From: Mitsuokella jalaludinii DSM 13811
GTDB taxonomy: Bacteria; Bacillota; Negativicutes; Selenomonadales; Selenomonadaceae
NCBI RefSeq assembly: GCF_000702905.1
Contig: NZ_JNKR01000012.1
Span: 1-64,000, forward strand
Reading direction: 5' to 3'
Length of the DNA: 64,000 nucleotides
Shown here: in pieces, positions 754 to 34,552 of the stretch
Position numbering within the stretch: position 1 is the stretch's first letter
Layout of the letters: each line of letters opens with the position of its first letter
The notes under the pieces: model-generated
Told to the model about the DNA's origin: nothing
Seen by the model: the letters and a program-made list of their open reading frames with translations, nothing else
Databases searched by the model: none
Translations under genes and position numbers: made by a program

Positions 754-908
754 CGCCTGCGACAGTCCGACTGTGAACGTCTCAGACGGAAGCATCTCAT
801 CTTCCGCCTGATCAGCGACTGAGTCACCAGACTTGACCCGCTGTGGTAGAATACAATATAATACACAGCAAAAATCCCGGCGTACTGCTCATGCGCCGGG
901 ATTTTTGT
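754..908. repeat. ~155-bp dispersed intergenic element, copy 1
   Basis: This stretch is the reverse complement of 32583-32740 with about 90 percent identity by eye. It contains a short palindrome (ACAGTCCGACTGT), an imperfect hairpin (GGAAG-CATCTCAT-CTTCC with flanks), a promoter-like TTGACC/TATAAT pair and a terminal hairpin with T-run. The stem of the terminal hairpin differs between copies by paired changes (ATCCCGG/CCGGGAT here, ATACCGG/CCGGTAT there). It lies directly after the decayed Rpn copy and before the 3' end of the MmcQ gene. Confidence 0.7.
870..906. terminator. Bidirectional intrinsic terminator
   Basis: A stem AAAAATCCCGGCG / CGCCGGGATTTTT with an 11-base loop, bounded by A and T runs on both sides, lies in a convergent position between the Rpn remnant and the minus-strand MmcQ gene. 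Confidence 0.8.
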
Positions 909-916
909 GTCTGCAT

Positions 917-1600
917 TCATTTAGTGAGCCGGTAGCTCTCATCGATCCACTTCATGATGGCCGCATCGGGATGCGTGTCATCCAGCACGACGGAGATCCA
1001 GGTCTTGTGGTTCATGTGATAGGCCGGATAGACACTTGGCAGCTGGCGGAGGGCTTCCCCCTGCTCCGGCTGTATCTTCAAGTTGATGATATCGACGGGA
1101 TCGGGATTATCGTCCTTATCGAGCACGGCGCGTTTGACGTGCATGATCAGGGCAAACCATTTCCGATTGGAAGCATGACGAAAGGTTCCGTAGGACTGAT
1201 AGTGCGTTTCTTTCTCCCATGGGAAATCCGGCGCAACCTGAAAGCGCTCAAGGATGCTCTGCGTCAGTCGGTTAGCCTGGTCGGACGCGAACAGCACATC
1301 TTGGCAGCAGGCCGCCGCAACCGCCTCCAGAAGTTCCTCATAGGCTGCGCGGACGGTGTTGACATATGCGCCCGTAGCATTCTTCTGGCGCAGCTGGTAG
1401 TACTCCTCATGGGAAATCGCATCAATCACACGGCCTGTGACCATTCCCTTCTCCGTCACCGTCAGGATGGCCTCGAAGTCTCCATTCAAAAAGCGCCGCT
1501 CAAGCACATAGTCATCCCCGACTTGTTGGAATCCAAAAGCGAGCATCTTCTTCAGCACCCATCGCTTCCGGGTAAAAATAGTTTCCTCGATTGACACCAT
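917..1600 (-). CDS. MmcQ/YjbR family protein
   Basis: A 227-aa protein. The C-terminal ~110 residues carry the MmcQ/YjbR fold signature: HASNRKWFALIMHV, NLKIQPEQGEALRQ, SVYPAYHMNHKTWISVVLD and a final DESYRLTK. The N-terminal ~110 residues are an extra domain also seen in longer members. These proteins are small, usually described as DNA-binding-like (CyaY-like fold), and no reaction is established. The start at 1600 is chosen because AGGGAGGA lies 8 bases upstream; the frame continues to 1681 without a better site. It is preceded by a promoter, a structured ~230-nt leader and a terminator (1672-1902), so its expression may be controlled by read-through. Confidence 0.8.
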   Translation of the reverse strand: MVSIEETIFTRKRWVLKKMLAFGFQQVGDDYVLERRFLNGDFEAILTVTEKGMVTGRVIDAISHEEYYQLRQKNATGAYVNTVRAAYEELLEAVAAACCQDVLFASDQANRLTQSILERFQVAPDFPWEKETHYQSYGTFRHASNRKWFALIMHVKRAVLDKDDNPDPVDIINLKIQPEQGEALRQLPSVYPAYHMNHKTWISVVLDDTHPDAAIMKWIDESYRLTK

Positions 1601-1671
1601 GAGTAGTCCTCCCTTTGACAAAACCTGCAATGACACCATTCGCTGCGCCATCACAAATACGAGATACAGGA

Positions 1672-1902
1672 CAAAAAGCAAAGCAAAAGCCGTTCAATCT
1701 GTTTCGACTGAACGGCTATTTGCTTTCTGTTTGTTTGTCCATGTTACTGTTCACCGCATGGCACCTTCAGTGGCCCATCGGACTCCCCTCCTTCGGAGAA
1801 ATCACTTACCCGTCTTTCGAGCTTCGTTTCAAGCATCCGGTAAGAAGTCATCCTATCGATTCGAGCCTTGTCAATCTCTCTATGGCTTTCTTCCTTTTGC
1901 TT
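1672..1902 (-). ncRNA. Candidate structured leader or small RNA ending in a terminator
   Basis: A good minus-strand promoter (1909-1937) would start a transcript near 1902. The RNA has a long-range stem CTTACCG/CGGGTAAG enclosing GCTT-GAAACG-AAGC, then CTCC-GAA-GGAG, then a GCC..GGTGCC hairpin, and ends in AGCCGTTCA / TGAACGGCT followed by a T-rich tract. No coding frame with a ribosome site is convincing. The MmcQ gene starts 72 bases beyond the terminator, which fits an attenuated leader. I compared it mentally with T-box, glycine, cobalamin, SAM, lysine, FMN, TPP and c-di-GMP riboswitch consensus sequences and none fits well. Confidence 0.45.
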
Positions 1903-1908
1903 GACTAT

Positions 1909-1937
1909 ATTGTAGCAAAAGCGTGTAACAAAGTCAA
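1909..1937 (-). promoter_or_regulatory. Sigma-70-type promoter for the leader RNA
   Basis: On the minus strand TTGACT (1937-1932) and TACAAT (1914-1909) are separated by 17 bases, in an AT-rich stretch upstream of the structured leader. Confidence 0.65.
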
Positions 1938-2040
1938 GCATTTTCTATTATTATTTTTGGATTTCTGTAATGGCATGTATTATTTCATCAGGCTATTCGA
2001 TTGATTTTTGTCTTTTAGGAGAGGGGATGCTATTTTATAT

Positions 2041-2069
2041 TTGACAAAATTGATTTTATACAATATAAT
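2041..2069 (+). promoter_or_regulatory. Consensus promoter for rubrerythrin
   Basis: TTGACA and TATAAT are both perfect and are spaced by 17 bases. The start would be near 2076, giving a leader of about 45 bases before the rubrerythrin ATG. Confidence 0.85.
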
Positions 2070-2120
2070 AAAGCCATATGATGAACAACTGACATGTGCA
2101 AGGATTTTAGGAGGACAAAC

Positions 2121-2666
2121 ATGAGCTTGAACGGAATCACAAAAGGTACAGAATTCGAGGACATGATGAAGCGCCTGATGCAGGCAGAGGCCAATGGCGT
2201 CATGATGTACTACGCGCTGGCACAGCTCGCACGTGAGCAGGGTCTTAAAGATGTAGCAGAGGGCTTTGTCGCTGCAGCCAACGAAGAAGCCGTCCACGCC
2301 GGCTTCTACGCCGTACTCAACGGCAAATACCCGTCCGACTTCTGGGGCCTCGTGCGCGCCGTGCAGAAAGCTGAGGAGAACGGCGAGGCACAGGTCAAGA
2401 CGATCGCCGACAAAGTCCGCGCCGCTGGCTTCGATGAAGCTGCTGACCAGATGGAAATCTTCGCTCGCCAGGAAGGTGGCCACGGTGTACGCCTGCAGGC
2501 CATGCTCGACAAGTATCAGCCGAAGAAAGAAGACACGGCTGGCAAGAAAATCTACGTCTGCCCGGTCTGCGGCTACGAGTATGTCGGTGACATCAACGAC
2601 GAGGACGATTCCTATGTCTGCCCGCTCTGCGGCCAGCCGAAGAGCGCCTTTGTCCTGAAGAAGTAA
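2121..2666 (+). CDS. rbr: Rubrerythrin
   Basis: A 181-aa cytosolic non-haem iron protein that reduces hydrogen peroxide in anaerobes using electrons from NADH via rubredoxin-type donors. Residues 1-140 form the ferritin-like diiron four-helix bundle, with ligand helices visible in MQAEANGVMMYYAL, NEEAVHAGFY and ARQEGGHG. Residues ~145-181 are a rubredoxin domain with two CPxCG knuckles (CPVCGYEY and CPLCGQPKSAF). The start at 2121 is set by TTAGGAGGACAAAC; a frame-open ATG-less extension to 2094 lacks a ribosome site. It is monocistronic, with its own consensus promoter and a strong terminator. Regulation by peroxide is plausible but no convincing PerR box was seen. Confidence 0.95.
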   Translation: MSLNGITKGTEFEDMMKRLMQAEANGVMMYYALAQLAREQGLKDVAEGFVAAANEEAVHAGFYAVLNGKYPSDFWGLVRAVQKAEENGEAQVKTIADKVRAAGFDEAADQMEIFARQEGGHGVRLQAMLDKYQPKKEDTAGKKIYVCPVCGYEYVGDINDEDDSYVCPLCGQPKSAFVLKK

Positions 2667-27044: not shown

Positions 27045-30000
27045 TTATCGATATCGATGTGCTGGTGGCGTGTCTGGTGGTGCTGGATCTTTTCCTGGTA
27101 CATGTGGCGGTCGGCCGTGGCCAGGATGGTGTCGATGTTGTCGATGGGGGTGGTGGCGAGGGCGTAGCCGAGGGCGATGCTGATGCCTGCGGTGCGGAAG
27201 CGGTCGTGGAGCTGGGCGCAGATGGCACCGGCCTGCGCACTGTCTTGGATTTCTTCTACCATGAGGAATTCGTCGCCTCCCATGCGGAAGACGGCGTCTG
27301 TGGGGCAGGCGGATTCCAGGAGGCTGGCAGCGGCCTTGATGAGCGTGTCACCGGCTTCGTGCCCAAGGCGGTCATTCGTCTCCTTGAGGCCGTTGAGATC
27401 TCCGAAGAAGAAGGCATACTGGCGGTTGTCGGGCAGATTTTGAAGATAGTCGAGCAGGCCGCGGCGGTTCATGATGGCTGTCAGCGGGTCAATCTTGCCC
27501 AGGCGGTCGATGTGCCGGATCAGGTTGCGGTTGCGCAGCAGGATGGAGAAGAAGCGCGCGAGTGCCTGCAAGAGCGGGAGCGCTTTTTCCATCTGTTCGG
27601 GCGCGGGATTGATGACCTCGAGGTAGCCGTAGGCGCGGTCGTCGAGGCGCAGGCGCACGAAGATCAGGCGCTGGAGGTTCGGCAGGCGCGGCGCGTAGCC
27701 GTTGTCGCGGCAGAAGGCTTCGACGTCGTCGATGGTGAAGACGGGCTCTTTAAGGAAGTGCTCGTAGAGCGAATGAATCTCCTCGCGCGGGAAGGGCTGG
27801 ATCTCGCGCGAGAGTGGCAGGGCATCCTGTGCATCCCAGAAGTGGGAGCAGCGCAGCATCGTCGCCGTTTCTTCGGCGATGAGGAGATGATCGGCTGAGA
27901 GCAGGTGCCCGAGGCGGTTCATCATCTTGCGGATGCCGCTCTCCGGGTCGATCTCGTACATGCCTGCGCGGATGATGTCGTTTATGGAGAGCTCCTGATA
28001 GAGGACCTTGTCGTGCGCGGCATGGCGCTGCTGGTATTTGTCGAGGTTGATGGCCATGCAGAAATGGCAGGACTTGCCGTTCCACGGGACGAGCGTGTGG
28101 CAGAGCAGGAGATTGGCGTTCATGGTATCGTTGTGGTAGATGTGGACCTGGCAGACGTTGTGCCGGAGCTTGCTCTCGTTGCAGTTATCGCACGGGGCGT
28201 TCGCTCCCATCAGGAGGCGGTAGCAGGTCTTCCCGGCAAGCGGCTCATCGTAGGTCAGGCCGAGCTCTCTGCGCTGGGCCTGGTTCAGGTAGAGGAGCTC
28301 GTGTGTCGCGGGGTCGGAGATAATCACGCCGAAGGGCAGCGTATCGAAGAGATCCCGTGAGAATAGGAGGTTGTCGTTGCTGTAGGGGGTCAGCCCGTAG
28401 CGCTTTTCTTCGGCGCGCTGCAGGCGCTGGATCAGCAGGCGCATGAGGCTGTCGAGGCTGCGCACCTCGGCGCCGTGCGCCTTGGCGTAGTGCATGTAGA
28501 GCGTGCAGGGATGGCCGTCGACCTCGCGGATCGCATGGACTTCCTGTGTAATCCTGAGTGCGGCTTCCTGCAGGCCGTTGTCCTGTGCATTCTTGGACAA
28601 GATGATGAAACAGCAGCTGCCGACGCGGGCGATGCTGCAGGCGGCAGGCAGGTCCTTGTGCAGTAGTGCGACAATCTTCTGCAGCAGGTGGCGCCGGAAA
28701 TCCTTGCCGTACTTCATGCCGATGCCATCGAACTCGGGCACGTCGAGCAGCGTGGCCGTGTAGTCGTTGCCGTGCAGGCGGTACTCGTCGGCGTACAGCA
28801 GAGCATCGCGCAGCATGCCGCAGTAGCTCAGCAGGTGTGTTTCCTCGTCGATGAGGCCGAGTGCGGCGTCCTGCTCCCGGCGCGCCGGTGCATCCACGAG
28901 GGTGCTCAGCTTGATGAAGATGCCGATGACCTGGCCGTCCTGACGGATGGGAAATTTTGCCGCGCGGATTTCCTGGAGGCGGTGTCCAATATCAATCTGC
29001 TCGCGCACGCCCAGTAGAGGGGTGCCAGTGCGCATGACGGTCTCTTCTGTCTCGTAGGCCTGCTCGGCGAGCAGCTGCCAGCCGAGCTCTTTGTCGGTCC
29101 GGCCGCGGATCTCGGCGATATCACGGACGCCGCGGGCCTTGAGGAAGGCGCGGCTGGCCCCACAGAAACGGTGCTGGCGGTCCTTCCAGAAGAATTCGAC
29201 ATCCATGTCCTCGAGCATGGTCGCAAAGGCTCCCTGGTACAGGGGGTCCTGTCCGGCGGCGAAGAAGTCTTTGGCGATGCCGTAGCTCTCGAGCATCTGG
29301 CGGATGATGACCGTGCGGTCGGGGATTTGCTCTATGAAATTCCTGTTGAAGCAGATGAGCATCTCGCGCGAGGTCGATTTGAAGAGTGCCATGCTCGTGA
29401 AGAAGATCCAGACATAGTGGCCGTCCGACATCAGGATGCGGAAGGGCGCTGTGATAAAGGACTTCGGGCTGGTCGAGGCACGCTCGTACAGGGCAGCGGG
29501 AGCCGCGAAGGCGAGGAAACGCTCGCGGTCGGCCGGATGGACGTAGCGGCTGGCGAAGCGCTGCATGGTTGCCGCTGTATCGTGGAACTGCATGCCGACG
29601 CGCGTCTCTGTCAGTGGCTCAATGATTTCAATGACGTCCTGGTCGAGGTTGATGTACCAGATGGCATCATAGGTCTGCAGCACATTGCGCACGATTGTGT
29701 CGAAGCGGTGGGAGTGGGTGTCGTCGAAGGCCTTGTCGGCACTGATGTTGGAGAGGTGCAGCTGGTGGACTGAATGGGTGCCGCGTGCGGCAAGCTCCTT
29801 GATCTTGACGCGCATGTATTGGCCGTTGTCGACATACATCATCGACTCCCACTGGCCCGTCGCCTTGCCGCGCTCGAGGAAGCGGCGGAACTTCTCGTTC
29901 ATCGGGAAGTTCTTCGAGCGGAAGTTGATGTTGACGCGCTCGACGCTCGGCGTGCCGATGCTGTGCAGGGCGTCGAGGTAGAGTGCATTGGCCTGCAGCA

Positions 30001-31375
30001 TGGTCATCTGCTCATTGTCGTCGTAGAGAATGGCGACCGGGGCCGTCTGGTTCATGTCGACGAGCCCGGCCTTGTTGAGGAGTTCGGTATCGTCGCGGAT
30101 CTCCAGGTGCAGGTCGTTATCCAAGCAGTATTGTTGGAAGTCCTCGCATGGAACCGGTTTGCCATAATAGTAGCCCTGTATCTTCTCGCAGCCGATTTCC
30201 CGCAGGAAATCGCACTGATCCTTTGTCTCCGCGCCTTCAGCCAGCGTGTGGACGGAGAGGTCCTTGGCCATACTGACGAGGTACTTGAGGATCTTGCGGC
30301 TTTTCGCGGTGAAGGGATGCAGGAACTTCATATCAAACTTTATCGTATCGAAGTCGTAGTCCTTCAGGACATTGAGAGAGGAATAGCCGCTGCCGAAGTC
30401 GTCGAGCAGCACGGGATAGCCTTTTTTCTGGAACTTCTGGATCCCGTTCAGTACCGAGTCCATTCTGTCGACCAGCGCGTTTTCCGTGACCTCGATCTGG
30501 ATGAGGCCGAGCGGCAGGCGGTATTCTTCGCGGATCGTCTCGGCGACGGCGAACGGGTCCTGGAGCAGGAAGTCAAGGCGTGAGAGATTGACCGAGATGG
30601 GGAGAACAGGGAGGTTCGCATCGAGCTTTTCGCGCGCCATCTTGGCAACGGTGTGGAGGATGTAGGCGTCGAGCTTGTGGATGAGATGCGCCTCCTCGAG
30701 CACGGGGATGAAGATGCCCGGCGCGATCGTGCCGTACTGCGGCGACTCCCAGCGTGCGAGTGCCTCCGCGCTGACGAGCTCGCCCGTCAGCGTGCGGACG
30801 ACGGGCTGCAGGTAGACGCGGATGTAACCCTTGGCCATGGCCTGGTCCAGGTGCTCGCGCACGTAGTTCTGCATCTGGTGGCGCAGGCCGAGTTCTTCTG
30901 TGTAGACGGCCCAGTGGCGCGAAGCATCCTTCTTGATCGTGTCGCAGGCGATCTTGGCCTCGCTGTCAAAGGCGACATTGAGGTCCTTCGTTGAGGGCAG
31001 TCCCGTGAGGAAGCGGATGCCTGCCTTCAGCGCAATGTTGGGGTTCCCGATGAAGGCCAGCACGCGCTGGCAGGCCGTGTCAATACGCACCTGTACATCT
31101 GCCGTATCTGCGAGAACGGCGAAGGTATCTGATCCGAGGTGCACGACCAGCTGACAGGGGAACACCTCCTGCGGGATGTTCTCGATGTGTTGCAGGCAGA
31201 GATCCCCCCGCCGGAAGCCATGCGCGGCATTGTAGAGATGAAAATTCGTGATGTTGAAGAAGACCGGGCAGGACTTGATGTGGTGCCCCTCACGCCACTC
31301 CTGCTGCAGGTGCTCAGCCGCTGCCTGCAGGAATTCCTGCCGTCCCAGATGCGTTCGTCTCGTGTGTGTAATCAT
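27041..31375 (-). CDS. Giant composite c-di-GMP protein: GGDEF* - EAL - PAS array - GGDEF* - PAS(Cys) - GAF - GGDEF
   Basis: A 1444-aa soluble protein. A degenerate GGDEF domain (~1-160, GSDTF loop) is followed by an EAL domain (~165-425) with AEALARWE, SVNLSRLDF, EVTENALV, DDFGSGYSS, IKFDMKFL, TLAEGAET and QGYYYGKP. PAS-like segments span ~430-830 (one reads VEFFWKDRQHRFCGASRAFL), then a second degenerate GGDEF (~840-1000), a PAS with a cysteine cluster (CYRLLMGANAPCDNC), a GAF (~1130-1270) and an intact C-terminal GGDEF (FRMGGDEFLMVEE). It could both make and degrade c-di-GMP. The usual RxxD site is incomplete (Asp present, Arg replaced by Cys). The start has AAGGAATACGGT before it. Confidence 0.88.
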   Translation of the reverse strand: MITHTRRTHLGRQEFLQAAAEHLQQEWREGHHIKSCPVFFNITNFHLYNAAHGFRRGDLCLQHIENIPQEVFPCQLVVHLGSDTFAVLADTADVQVRIDTACQRVLAFIGNPNIALKAGIRFLTGLPSTKDLNVAFDSEAKIACDTIKKDASRHWAVYTEELGLRHQMQNYVREHLDQAMAKGYIRVYLQPVVRTLTGELVSAEALARWESPQYGTIAPGIFIPVLEEAHLIHKLDAYILHTVAKMAREKLDANLPVLPISVNLSRLDFLLQDPFAVAETIREEYRLPLGLIQIEVTENALVDRMDSVLNGIQKFQKKGYPVLLDDFGSGYSSLNVLKDYDFDTIKFDMKFLHPFTAKSRKILKYLVSMAKDLSVHTLAEGAETKDQCDFLREIGCEKIQGYYYGKPVPCEDFQQYCLDNDLHLEIRDDTELLNKAGLVDMNQTAPVAILYDDNEQMTMLQANALYLDALHSIGTPSVERVNINFRSKNFPMNEKFRRFLERGKATGQWESMMYVDNGQYMRVKIKELAARGTHSVHQLHLSNISADKAFDDTHSHRFDTIVRNVLQTYDAIWYINLDQDVIEIIEPLTETRVGMQFHDTAATMQRFASRYVHPADRERFLAFAAPAALYERASTSPKSFITAPFRILMSDGHYVWIFFTSMALFKSTSREMLICFNRNFIEQIPDRTVIIRQMLESYGIAKDFFAAGQDPLYQGAFATMLEDMDVEFFWKDRQHRFCGASRAFLKARGVRDIAEIRGRTDKELGWQLLAEQAYETEETVMRTGTPLLGVREQIDIGHRLQEIRAAKFPIRQDGQVIGIFIKLSTLVDAPARREQDAALGLIDEETHLLSYCGMLRDALLYADEYRLHGNDYTATLLDVPEFDGIGMKYGKDFRRHLLQKIVALLHKDLPAACSIARVGSCCFIILSKNAQDNGLQEAALRITQEVHAIREVDGHPCTLYMHYAKAHGAEVRSLDSLMRLLIQRLQRAEEKRYGLTPYSNDNLLFSRDLFDTLPFGVIISDPATHELLYLNQAQRRELGLTYDEPLAGKTCYRLLMGANAPCDNCNESKLRHNVCQVHIYHNDTMNANLLLCHTLVPWNGKSCHFCMAINLDKYQQRHAAHDKVLYQELSINDIIRAGMYEIDPESGIRKMMNRLGHLLSADHLLIAEETATMLRCSHFWDAQDALPLSREIQPFPREEIHSLYEHFLKEPVFTIDDVEAFCRDNGYAPRLPNLQRLIFVRLRLDDRAYGYLEVINPAPEQMEKALPLLQALARFFSILLRNRNLIRHIDRLGKIDPLTAIMNRRGLLDYLQNLPDNRQYAFFFGDLNGLKETNDRLGHEAGDTLIKAAASLLESACPTDAVFRMGGDEFLMVEEIQDSAQAGAICAQLHDRFRTAGISIALGYALATTPIDNIDTILATADRHMYQEKIQHHQTRHQHIDIDN

Positions 31376-31481
31376 ACCGTATTCCTTACTTTCCCTTGCC
31401 AGTTGTAACTCGTATCCTCATTGTAACACAAAGCCCCTGAAAAAGAACGTACTGTTATGAGAATTCGTCACTTCTGTGGTG

Positions 31482-31505
31482 AAAAAGTCCAGCGCTGGAC
31501 TTTTT
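31482..31505. repeat. Dispersed 24-bp palindrome (AGTCCAGCGCTGGACT family)
   Basis: A perfect palindrome with A5 and T5 flanks. Here it lies in the divergent intergenic region between the 1444-aa gene and the DUF134 gene, so it is not simply a terminator of a neighbouring gene. The following ~75 bases hold several GTCCGAC/GTCGGA motifs. Confidence 0.75.
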
Positions 31506-31607
31506 GGCGCGGAAGGTCCGACTATCAAACTGACCGTCCGCCTGCCCGACTATCCGACTGTCAGTTTGTCGGAGTCCTCCGACACATCCCTGTGCCCTCA
31601 TTTTATG

Positions 31608-31636
31608 TTGACATATGTCAGCAAATTCGCTATACT
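31608..31636 (+). promoter_or_regulatory. Promoter of the DUF134-NifX gene
   Basis: TTGACA and TATACT are spaced by 17 bases. The -35 box is part of the first TGACATATGTCA palindrome. Confidence 0.8.
31609..31620. promoter_or_regulatory. Operator palindrome 1 (TGACATATGTCA)
   Basis: A perfect 12-bp palindrome overlapping the -35 box. An identical copy lies 37 bases downstream. Confidence 0.7.
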
Positions 31637-31645
31637 GACAGTAGA

Positions 31646-31657
31646 TGACATATGTCA
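31646..31657. promoter_or_regulatory. Operator palindrome 2 (TGACATATGTCA)
   Basis: Identical to palindrome 1 and placed just after the predicted transcription start, 32 bases before the start codon. The pair is the expected layout for an autorepressor such as the HTH domain of the gene itself. Confidence 0.7.
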
Positions 31658-31688
31658 AGAATATGGAAGGCGGATTGAGGTGAAACGT

Positions 31689-32471
31689 ATGGGGAGAGTG
31701 ACAAAGGCGCGGCGCGTCTGCGCCATGCCCTTGTATGCGCGCTTTGCGCCGCAGCCGGATGAGGCCAAGGCACCCGTGCGGATGGAGATCGAAGACTATG
31801 AGTGCATCCGCCTCATGGATTACTTGGGCATGACGCAGGAAGAATGTGCTGTGCAGATGGGGGTGGCCCGCACGACGGTGCAAGGCATCTACACGAGGGC
31901 ACGGCGCCGCCTGGCAGGGGCTCTTGTCGAAGGACGCCCACTGCAAATCGCAGGCGGGAACTTCGAGCTCTGCCCGCAGCAAGGCCATGGCTGTGGTCAA
32001 TCCCGCTACCTGCCGCAGCCCCATACCGCAGGGGGCGCATCGATGGATGTGCCGCCAGATCTCAGCGCAACGAAAGGAAGGATTCTTATGCGATTGGCAA
32101 TCCCTTATGATAACGGTCAGGTCTTCCAGCACTTTGGCCGTAGCGAGCAGTTCAAGATCTACGAAGTGGCAGATGGCGCCATCGAATCGACGCATGTGCT
32201 GGAGAACAACGGCGAAGGCCACGGCGCACTCGTCACGCTCTTGCAGCAAGCGCATGTCGATGTCCTGATTTGCGGCGGCATCGGCGCGGGCGCACAGAAC
32301 GCTCTGAAGGCAGCAGGCATCCGCTTCTACGGCGGCGTGCAGGGCGAGGCTGACAAGGCAGCAGCCGACTTCCTGGCAGACCGCCTCGCCTACGACCCCG
32401 CCGTCCGCTGCGAGCATCACGGCGAAGGGCACGGTCATGGGCATGGGCACGGCTGCCATCATCAGGCTTGA
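31689..32471 (+). CDS. DUF134 helix-turn-helix fused to NifX/NafY-type cofactor-binding domain
   Basis: A 260-aa protein. Residues ~1-100 are a DUF134 domain: RRVCAMPLYARFAP, a metal- or motif-rich EDYECIRLMDYLGM and a sigma-like HTH (TQEECAVQMGVARTTVQGIY). Residues ~135-245 form a dinitrogenase iron-molybdenum cofactor domain (MRLAIPYDNGQVFQHFGRSE, LICGGIGAGAQNAL). The tail is histidine-rich (HHGEGHGHGHGHGCHHQA), suited to metal binding. Usually these are separate neighbouring proteins. Two identical operator palindromes at its promoter suggest autoregulation, possibly through an Fe-S or metal signal. No nitrogenase genes are present. A GTG at 31680 is an alternative start; the ATG at 31689 fits GAGGTG best. 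Confidence 0.85.
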   Translation: MGRVTKARRVCAMPLYARFAPQPDEAKAPVRMEIEDYECIRLMDYLGMTQEECAVQMGVARTTVQGIYTRARRRLAGALVEGRPLQIAGGNFELCPQQGHGCGQSRYLPQPHTAGGASMDVPPDLSATKGRILMRLAIPYDNGQVFQHFGRSEQFKIYEVADGAIESTHVLENNGEGHGALVTLLQQAHVDVLICGGIGAGAQNALKAAGIRFYGGVQGEADKAAADFLADRLAYDPAVRCEHHGEGHGHGHGHGCHHQA

Positions 32472-32582
32472 GCGAGACGCTGCGGAAGTCAGCAGCAGGC
32501 CCCACAAACGCACTGCTAGGATTTGCCTGCTGAATGCTCCGCTGATTGCCCAATCCGATGACAAGCAAAAGCCGCATAGATA

Positions 32583-32740
32583 CAAAGATACCGGCGTATG
32601 AGCAGTACGCCGGTATCTTTGCTGTGTATTATATCGATTGTATTCTACCTCAGCGGGTCAAGTCTGGTGACTCAGTCGCTACTCAGGCGGAAGATGAGAT
32701 GCTTCCGCCTGAGACGTTCACAGTCGGACTGTCGCAGGCG
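32583..32740. repeat. ~155-bp dispersed intergenic element, copy 2 (with terminator 32584-32620)
   Basis: Inverted copy of 754-908. It includes a terminal hairpin (AAAGATACCGGCGTA and complement), a TATAAT-like string, a perfect hairpin GGCGGAAG-ATGAGATG-CTTCCGCC and the palindrome ACAGTCGGACTGT. Compared with copy 1 it has a 4-base insertion between ACAAT and ATATAAT, and the terminal stem shows a C-to-A change compensated on the other arm. It starts right after the glutathione peroxidase stop codon and ends just after the DUF134 gene. Confidence 0.7.
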
Positions 32741-32741
32741 G

Positions 32742-33287
32742 TCAGAGCAGTTTCTCGATATCTGCGGCGATGGCCGACGGGACTTTCGTCGGCTCGAAGC
32801 GCTTGACGACCGTGCCGTCGCGGTCGATGAGGAACTTCGTGAAGTTCCACTTGATGCCGTCGCCTTCGAGGTACTCCGGGAAGTTCTTCTTGAGAACATC
32901 CTCGAGCACTGCGGCGTTCGGATGCTCCTTGTCGAATCCCTCGAAGCCTTTCTCCTTCGTGAGGTACTGGAAGAGCGGCTGGGCCGTCTCACCGCGGACA
33001 TCGCCCTTCTCGAAGATCTGGAACGTCACGCCGTAGTTGTAGCGGCAGAACTGCTGAATCTCTTCGTTGCTGCCCGGATCCTGTGCGGCGAACTGGTTGC
33101 ACGGGAAGCCGAGGATCTCGAAGCCCTTGTCCTTGTAGGCGAGGTAGAGTTTCTGCAGGTCATCGAACTGCGGCGTGAAGCCGCACTTGCTGGCCGTGTT
33201 GACGATCAGCAGGACTTTGCCCTTGTAGTCTGCCAGCGACTTTTCCTTGCCCTGGCTCGTCTTGACGGTGAAATCGTAGATGCTCAT
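32742..33287 (-). CDS. Glutathione peroxidase family (thiol peroxidase, Cys type)
   Basis: A 181-aa cytosolic peroxidase. The peroxidatic cysteine is Cys35 in [11 protein letters not shown], the glutamine is in [13 protein letters not shown] (with a possible resolving cysteine), and the tryptophan/asparagine motif is [10 protein letters not shown]. Cys-type members generally use thioredoxin, not glutathione, and reduce hydrogen peroxide and organic peroxides. AAGGAAG lies before the start. It has no operon partner here; the palindromic element follows directly. Confidence 0.92.
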
Positions 33288-33511
33288 GATGATCTTCCTT
33301 TCTGTTCGGGTATTCTGGTTCTATGCACGCCGCAGAAGCGCTCGGCCTGCTGCGGGTATGTCTCATCTCTATAGCTTCATTATACATGCTCTCTTTTATT
33401 TTGTCAAATTTAATTTTGCAATACAATCATAAGCGACAGACATGATGGCCATACTGGTGTAATGTGTGTTATACTAGTACTATATCGTAGTATTAAATCA
33501 GGAGGATTGCA

Positions 33512-34552
33512 ATGAAAGCATCATACAAGAAGATGGTCAAGATGGCGATGACGACGGTGATGGCTGGCGGCATCATGATGATGGGGCAGTCGGCCATGGC
33601 GGCACCAGCGCAGCCGCAGGTGCATGTGGATTCGGCGACGAAGGACATGCCGGGCCATGTGGCGAGCAAGGTCCTCGATGTCAAGGCGGACAAGACGGAA
33701 GTCGGACTGATCTCGAACGTCGTCTATGAGCAGGTGCCGAGCCGCGGCTATGCGAATGTGCCGATGCAGATGGACATCCTGCAGCCGAAGACGAAGGAGA
33801 AGAAGCCCGCCATCCTCTTTGTTACGGGAGGCGGCTTCATCAACGCCAACAAGGACAATGGCATCCAGCTCCGCATGCACCTGGCGGAGAACGGCTATGT
33901 CGTCGGCAGCATCAACTACCGCGTCGCGCCGACGGCGAAATTCCCGGAGCCGCTCGAGGATGTCAAGGCGGCCATTCGCTACCTCAAGGCGAATGCCGAC
34001 CGCTTCGGCATCGATCCGGCGCGCGTCGGCATTGTCGGCGGCAGTGCAGGCGGCTACCTGACGGCTATGGCAGGTACGACGAGCGGCACGAAGACATTCG
34101 ACAAGGGCGAGAACCTCCAGGTCACGAGTGATGTCAAGGCTGCTGTAGACCTCTACGGGCTCTCCGACCTCACGCAAGTTGGCGCCGACTTCTCCGAAGA
34201 AGTCCAGGCAAAGCACCGCTCTGCTGGCGCGACGGAAGCCCTCTGGGTCAACGGCTCGCCTGTCTTCGGCGGCCGTGACGGAGGCATCCTCGCCGACAAG
34301 CAGGCAGCCGAGGCGGCCAACCCCATCCACTACATCAGCAAGACGAGCGCCCCGATGCTCCTGATGCACGGCACGGCCGACACTGTCGTCTCCCCGAGTC
34401 AGACCGACCTGCTCTACCAGGCCCTGCAGAAAAGCGGCATCCCGAGTGAGCGCTACCTCGTCACCGGCGCCGCACACGGCGGCAAATACTGGGTCCAGGA
34501 ACCCGTGCTCAAGATCATCACGGATTTTTTCGACCAGTATCTGAAAAAATGA
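33512..34552 (+). CDS. Exported alpha/beta hydrolase (HSL/esterase type)
   Basis: A 346-aa protein with a signal peptide (residues 1-30, cleavage near AMAAPA). The esterase fold shows an oxyanion loop of the HGG type (FVTGGGFINA), the nucleophile elbow GGSAGGY, an aspartate in MLLMHGTADTVVSP and a histidine in TGAAHGGKYW. It resembles BD-FAE-like and other carboxylesterases acting on acetylated or feruloylated carbohydrate, but the substrate is unknown. A ribosome site AGGAGG and a terminator (34585-34634) mark a single-gene unit. Confidence 0.85.
   Translation: MKASYKKMVKMAMTTVMAGGIMMMGQSAMAAPAQPQVHVDSATKDMPGHVASKVLDVKADKTEVGLISNVVYEQVPSRGYANVPMQMDILQPKTKEKKPAILFVTGGGFINANKDNGIQLRMHLAENGYVVGSINYRVAPTAKFPEPLEDVKAAIRYLKANADRFGIDPARVGIVGGSAGGYLTAMAGTTSGTKTFDKGENLQVTSDVKAAVDLYGLSDLTQVGADFSEEVQAKHRSAGATEALWVNGSPVFGGRDGGILADKQAAEAANPIHYISKTSAPMLLMHGTADTVVSPSQTDLLYQALQKSGIPSERYLVTGAAHGGKYWVQEPVLKIITDFFDQYLKK

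Follow-up and report, generated by a model that had tools for sequence, protein, structure and literature searches.

The window analysed here, a stretch of 64,000 nucleotides from Mitsuokella jalaludinii DSM 13811, carries an element of about 155 bp in two inverted copies, which we consider with good confidence to be remnants of a two-RNA locus that now most likely serve as bidirectional terminators between convergent frames. The last ~55 nt of the element, ATATAATACACAGC and a hairpin whose loop is CTGCTCA, correspond to the 3' end of a conserved small-RNA (sRNA) family, and in both copies this end is joined straight to the promoter region of a second unit, P1, which precedes the sRNA in intact loci. 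The intact parent would have consisted, on one strand, of P1, encoding a putative sponge RNA, followed in tandem by a Fur-box-like promoter driving the sRNA. A deletion would then have brought the P1 promoter region up against the final ~14 nt of the sRNA and its terminator, with the loss of the body of the sponge, the Fur-like promoter and the seed-bearing body of the sRNA. The resulting 5' unit would have come to stand at two places, as copy 1 at the sRNA position by a YjbR-type gene and as copy 2 behind a glutathione peroxidase gene. The interest of the element lies in this parent locus.

Two fused copies and their genomic sites

A BLASTN search with the window stretch against its own genome returned the element at 754-908 (+) and 32582-32740 (-), with 92% identity and E = 8.7e-61 (91% and 1.3e-61 with a longer query), so that the two inverted copies described in the initial annotation are confirmed. 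Between 753-912 and 32578-32741 there are 11 substitutions and one 4-nt gap. The palindrome ACAGTCCGACTGT, which had been described as kept, is indeed present in both copies (Table 1).

Table 1. Coordinates of the two copies, of their parts and of related loci; positions are those of the window unless a genome and contig are named.
Feature	Position	Strand	Remark
Element copy 1, remnant of putative sponge/sRNA locus	754..908	+	between the + strand frame of 67 aa (535-738) and the YjbR-type gene 917-1681 (-)
Palindrome ACAGTCCGACTGT, copy 1	762..774	.	3 places in own genome
Middle hairpin, copy 1	782..811	+	one mismatch; present in the two copies only
P1 region, copy 1 (putative sponge promoter)	815..852	+	GCGACTGAGTCAC ... 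TAGAAT (847-852); spacing by eye
Sigma-70-like TTGACC-18-TATAAT, copy 1 only	833..862	+	11/12, consensus match
sRNA tail ATATAATACACAGC, copy 1	856..869	+	identical to conserved stretch of intact sRNA
Terminator hairpin, copy 1	868..908	+	loop CTGCTCA; both sRNA terminators of MAG SUG1706 share its inner 37 nt exactly
Element copy 2, remnant	32582..32740	-	immediately follows the stop codon that ends the glutathione peroxidase gene 32742-33287 (-)
Palindrome, copy 2	32720..32732	.	
Middle hairpin, copy 2	32682..32713	-	fully paired
P1 remnant, copy 2	32636..32679	-	up to junction ACAATC|GATATAAT; no sigma-70-like match
sRNA tail ATATAATACACAGC, copy 2	32621..32634	-	
Terminator hairpin, copy 2	32582..32622	-	ATACCGG/CCGGTAT; matches intact C45 sRNA save one base
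3' flank of copy 2, also C45-homologous	32568..32581	-	match 32568-32635, 96%
Tandem pairs of divergent sRNA relative, other Negativicutes families	G037:C153:2720-3150; G040:C6:672900-673300 (L164, L165)		each with near-perfect Fur-like palindrome

The same genome holds partial copies of the element on two other contigs, C45 and C23, and the intact locus on C45 shows what the window copies have lost. The P1 region of the copies (GCGACTGAGTCAC...TTGACCCGCTG.GGTAGAATACAAT) is followed at once by the sRNA tail, and in copy 1 it matches C45:407-453 at 89% (E 4e-11 to 6e-11). The junction of copy 2 equals C45 minus CAGGAGAGCTTT...AAAGCTCTCCTAA, and copy 1 lacks four more bases there. Because the copy 2 junction, ACAATC|GATATAATAC, is exactly the intact C45 locus without its middle, copy 1 has more probably lost the 4 nt than copy 2 gained them, contrary to the spacer gain that had been claimed. 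At either end of the removed segment, C45 has one arm of an 11-bp inverted repeat, the sponge site forming one arm and the sRNA seed the other.

The terminal hairpins differ between the copies by two pairs changed on both sides (A-U to G-C; C-G to A-U) and by one further pair changed from U.G to U-A, so that the compensatory stem changes seen by the initial annotation hold, with pairing kept throughout. Each hairpin, whichever strand is folded, reaches -24 to -29 kcal/mol (z -5.7 to -7.9), and none of 200 shuffles was as stable; the terminator rule of the scan flagged copy 1 on neither strand and copy 2 on the + strand only. Copy 2 has the terminator and 3' flank of C45 save a few bases, whereas in copy 1 both resemble those of the M. 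multacida sRNA near YjbR, and the "compensatory" difference between the copies is therefore a difference between two paralogous sRNA terminators. Since the copies share their 5' unit while their terminators come from different sRNA paralogues, a recombination step must be assumed.

The rest of the element behaves differently from its terminal hairpin. The middle hairpin is retained in both copies, as had been noted, but without compensation, an A.C mismatch in copy 1 standing against G-C in copy 2. The 5' part of copy 1 (59 nt) folds no better than its shuffles (z -1.0, 29/200), and the 5' piece of copy 2 (67 nt) reaches z -3.0 (2/200 shuffles). With the middle hairpin mismatched in copy 1 and the 5' part of that copy shuffle-like in stability, the evidence of covariation is that of the terminal hairpin.

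The position of copy 1 is that of the intact locus in M. multacida (G001), where YjbR is followed by two more genes and then by the intact sRNA; in the window the two intervening genes are missing and the element lies directly next to YjbR, joined at GCAG as judged by eye. Copy 2 faces a DUF134/Nitro_FeMo-Co gene, 31476-32471 (+). Behind glutathione peroxidase, M. multacida and MAG SUG1706 have no such element; they have hairpins of their own there (-27.9 and -37.2 kcal/mol, 0/200 shuffles as stable). The genes on both sides of copy 2 (27060-31361 and 32072-32472 on one side, 32740-34551 on the other) are collinear and on the same strand with G001 1071395-1078959, so that there is no support for an inversion of the 32-kb segment between the copies, which the initial annotation had envisaged.

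Two further observations concern the surroundings of copy 1. Within window positions 911-2666, YjbR is inverted relative to M. multacida and the next block lies ~63 kb away there, which places a rearrangement boundary beside copy 1. Near the contig start, positions 1-738 hold two similar frames in tandem (1-492, open at its start, and 535-738) with EGRAEG repeats, which we take to resemble Rpn-type genes; the ORF 52-492 had no Pfam match.

The intact sRNA family

At C45 and C23, ATATAATACACAGC and its hairpin close a small unit whose -35 region is overlapped by a Fur-box-like site. At C45 this site reads TTGATATTCATTATCA and is accompanied by a -10 box TATATT. The order in the RNA is AGGCUUUCGUU, a hairpin, AAAGCUCUCCUAAGAUAUAAUACACAGC and the terminator. 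The general plan of intact loci is a Fur-box-like promoter and an RNA of mostly ~80-150 nt, with a hairpin at its 5' end, a C-rich unpaired segment (CUCUCCU) and the terminator.

With the C45 unit as BLASTN query, matches appeared in 20 of 60 genomes, the own genome included, some of them short and weak. A 25-base core pattern was found at 63 places in 62 named stretches, all of whose titles give Selenomonas (a gut and mouth bacterium), Mitsuokella, Centipeda, Selenomonadaceae or Selenomonadales, with M. multacida DSM 20544 among them; together with the two loci of the own genome, these places make up the set of 65 loci used below. A covariance model, R1, built from 32 intact sRNAs (those of C45 and C23 among them, the window copies not used), found matches in 119 of 189 family genomes, representing 15 of 30 genera, at E <= 1e-4. 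It gives 99.2 and 93.7 bits for the intact sRNAs of C45 and C23, and 59.5 and 54.0 bits for the window copies. In a sample of the class, 54 of 250 genomes matched at E <= 0.01, 48 of them in the family and six outside it. In two of these six (G037 and G040) the units stand in tandem, their Fur-like palindromes are near-perfect and their core is GGCTCTCCAAAATATAAAATACAC, a third (G163) resembles a bare terminator, and the remaining three matches are weak.

The association with a Fur-box-like site was scored in silico with TGATAATNATTATCA, which we took as the Fur motif. Over the 62 of 65 loci with an automatically found start, the other three being omitted from this count, the best match averaged 11.4 of 14 positions vs 8.5 in shuffles, and it stood at one fixed place in 47 of the 62. 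L082 and L113 have the standard family promoter behind an insert of ~155 nt in the variable 5' hairpin of the sRNA, and at L091 a Fur-like site can be recognised by eye.

Of the 65 tails, 51 match the terminator loop CTGCTCA exactly, and the 14 tails without it were excluded from the covariation count. The 51 yield 31 distinct hairpins, one of which copy 1 shares with MAG SUG1706; copy 2 adds the 32nd. Across these 32, all 15 stem pairs show changes on both sides and 94.4% of cells are paired, a proportion that falls to at most 47.5% when the alignment is slid by 1-3 columns. No shuffle in 500 attained the covariation score, a comparison in which relatedness alone can beat shuffles. This covariation argues that the intact sRNA is an independent small RNA with an intrinsic terminator.

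Neither in the window nor, at E <= 1, on the intact sRNAs read did any Rfam family attain its gathering score. Thr_leader was considered as an identity and rejected, L063 reaching 37.8 bits against a cut-off of 55, and so were ftsZ-DE and Atu_C9, which overlap the C45 P1 terminator and fall below cut-off.

As for function, the sRNA would be repressed by Fur with iron, and would spare iron by pairing CUCUCCU with ribosome-binding sites. Genes for Hfq and two Fur-family proteins are present. A target search in two genomes with the 12-mer TTAGGAGAGCTT, one mismatch allowed, gave no excess over a reversed-pattern control: it had 10 matches, four of them the sRNA loci themselves, vs 31 for the control.

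Several sRNA-like loci occur in particular surroundings. Three R1 matches lie at equal distance from contig starts (G203:C31 35-127, G203:C53 35-127 and G358:C4 35-127), as if at a repeat or mobile boundary, and the one on G203:C31 has an altered 5' end. Plasmid pSRC1 of S. ruminantium TAM6421 bears, at 157337-157455 (L170), an unannotated distant match (70.7%) to the sRNA promoter and body, adjoining a C-GCAxxG-C-C family gene. In S. ruminantium HD4, a CRISPR-DR4-like array of 17 repeats (L077:3961-4950; 34.7 bits vs a cut-off of 35) lies ~1.4 kb from an sRNA locus.

The upstream partner unit

In C45, in M. multacida and in MAG SUG1706, P1 stands just upstream of the sRNA, in tandem on the same strand. 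Its layout is ACTSAGTCAC, N23 counted from GTCAC, and TAGAAT, followed by an RNA with AGGAGAG, TGCTAACGA or AACGAAAG, and the terminator CCCCGGTTGAGCAGAACCGGGG; the promoter match at C45 is AAGACA-17-TAGAAT (9/12). Elements of P1 are complementary to three conserved features of the sRNA, namely the C-rich seed, the 5' arm of the hairpin and the terminator loop. An analogous unit, found in six loci of S. ruminantium and a Selenomonas MAG, has AGGAGAGC and a terminator loop containing TGTGTATT, which is complementary to AATACACA of the sRNA, and G220, from another genus, has a third version of the upstream unit.

The P1 RNA would, on this complementarity, titrate the sRNA. A less favoured reading, which we still regard as a substantial possibility, is that it is a short-ORF leader or an unrelated small transcript, with AGGAGAG as a simple ribosome-binding site. 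An 8-codon ATG frame ending in the terminator loop, recognised by eye at two Mitsuokella loci, would suit such a leader, but the frame is lost, also by eye, in the third locus of the genus and in Selenomonas. The placing of AGGAGAG argues for the sponge, since it occurs upstream on the same strand at 9 of 65 loci, whereas the downstream side has it at 3 and the opposite strand at 1 (9, 2 and 1 of 67 in a partly different, deduplicated set); the other 56 of 65 loci have no AGGAGAG partner unit in front. With AGGAGAG left out, the rest of the unit differs from dinucleotide shuffles at P 0.004-0.019 in the three loci of the window's genus and at P 0.015 in G220, and there are 15-17 complementary letters here, the terminator loop included, vs 0-9 in downstream control windows, which also speaks against a leader. 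The six Selenomonas loci are closer to what a leader would predict, their complementarity beyond AGGAGAG being marginal (P 0.05-0.10), with 8-9 complementary letters vs 7-11 in downstream control windows, so that several controls equal the unit. Given these shuffle values and control windows, we regard P1 as a likely sponge in the window's genus and the upstream units outside it as suggestive of one.

Two further comparisons carry less weight. A general scan for 9-mer complements in the 400 nt upstream gave 15 of 60 loci, while the opposite strand gave 9 and two downstream controls gave 10 and 7; with the three controls reaching 7-10 of 60, this signal is weak without the focus on AGGAGAG and leaves room for a leader. 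RNAduplex energies of -33 to -37 kcal/mol for the P1 RNA with the sRNA were not counted as evidence, because they ignore the folding of each RNA on itself and were computed without a control.

The present state of the copies and the parent locus among known systems

As remnants, the copies would today end transcription from both sides between convergent frames, a description that is weak in its "convergent genes" at copy 1 because the + strand frame there has only 67 aa. They could instead be active short RNA genes, in which P1 or, in copy 1, TTGACC-18-TATAAT would give a decoy RNA of ~40-55 nt (the tail and the CUGCUCA hairpin), directed at the sponge (loop GAGCAG) or at Hfq. We think this unlikely. 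The 11/12 promoter-like site does mean that copy 1 may not be silent, the CTGCTCA loop is present, none of the 14 tail positions has changed in either copy, which might be a sign of residual function, and an Hfq gene is at hand. Copy 2, however, has no sigma-70-like promoter match, and the spacing from GTCAC to TAGAAT is 19 in both copies vs 23 in three intact P1 units, so the P1 promoter is probably disabled in the copies. The seed CUCUCCU is missing as well, CTCTCCT and AGGAGAG being absent from both copies, and a decoy would be complementary to the sponge in the 7-nt loop only. The parent Fur motif, with two mismatches allowed, was found nowhere in the window.

The initial annotation had taken the whole unit for a functional RNA or a MITE-like unit and had looked to further copies and to covariation among them. 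Further copies exist for the tail, where covariation is also present (15 of 15 pairs over 32 hairpins), and a functional RNA is thus borne out for the 3' third, as the terminator end of the sRNA. Among 189 family genomes, a single one, that of the window, has the 5' part of the element (754-866), in two full copies, and the shared 5' hairpins (754-812) occur at no other place in the 189; with the middle hairpin also free of covariation, the 155-bp unit as a whole is unsupported as a functional RNA. A MITE-like mobile unit of ~155 bp would fit two dispersed, inverted copies of similar length that both lie between convergent frames, but we hold it to be very improbable: besides the confinement of the 5' part to one genome, the 3' part is an sRNA terminator, the C45 homology extends beyond the supposed end of copy 2, the element has no match in plasmids and the sRNA core no exact match in viral contigs. 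No ends of the MITE type (terminal inverted repeats with target duplication) are visible by eye, and the corresponding sites of the relatives are too different for a clean empty-site comparison.

Hardly credible, too, is the reverse order of events, with the fused P1-tail unit ancestral and a cassette with the ends AGGAGAGCTTT/AAAGCTCTCCT (sponge, Fur-like promoter and sRNA 5' part) inserted into it, for although the 11-bp inverted repeat flanking the removed segment in C45 would suit an insertion, the seed runs straight into the tail (AGCTCTCCTAARATATAATACACAG) in Selenomonas, Mitsuokella and Centipeda, and no AGGAGAG unit precedes 56 of 65 such seed-tail loci, so that the tail appears as old as the sRNA. 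The deletion order that we prefer rests on outgroup comparison, because the fused form is present in one genome only.

Among known systems, the sRNA is like FsrA of Bacillus subtilis, RyhB, PrrF1/2 and IsrR in its Fur-box-like site over the promoter, its intrinsic terminator and an unpaired C-rich stretch predicted to be able to pair with Shine-Dalgarno regions. It is unlike them in its conserved apical terminator loop (51 of 65 tails), in the phylogenetic group in which it occurs and in the upstream partner RNA of some loci. PrrF1 and PrrF2 of Pseudomonas are tandem Fur-controlled sRNA genes; G037 and G040 are like them in having tandem duplicates of the divergent sRNA relative, whereas the tandem partner in the window's genus is complementary to the sRNA and not its duplicate. 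The window copies themselves, in their most likely present state, would resemble the intrinsic bidirectional terminators that lie between convergent genes, and they differ from ordinary ones in carrying a loop and tail inherited from an sRNA.

For the partner unit the comparison is with RosA, described in PMC8216469 as the sponge of RoxS and FsrA in B. subtilis. Like RosA, the putative P1 RNA has G-rich stretches complementary to C-rich regions of a Fur-controlled sRNA (PMC8216469); unlike RosA, it lies directly upstream of and in tandem with its sRNA, and it also matches the terminator loop or tail of the latter. By analogy, the closest working models would be FsrA, RyhB, PrrF and IsrR for the sRNA and RosA for the sponge (PMC8216469, PMC9294342). 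In the literature on Negativicutes, few subscription papers being covered, no iron-regulated small RNA of this group was among the matches listed.

Taken as a whole, the sequences may point to an undescribed Fur-controlled sRNA family across much of Selenomonadaceae and in other Negativicutes families, preceded in at least three lineages by its own tandem sponge, whose sites would be complementary to the C-rich seed and to the terminator loop or the tail, a brake built into the locus, the window showing what is left when both bodies are deleted between complementary segments; we put this forward tentatively, as a proposal whose chances fall a little short of even. If confirmed, it would provide a RyhB/FsrA counterpart for this class of Bacillota, with a conserved sequence that is simple to probe in the cultivable S. 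ruminantium or M. multacida, and it would offer a natural test case for the interplay of an sRNA with a sponge encoded next to it.
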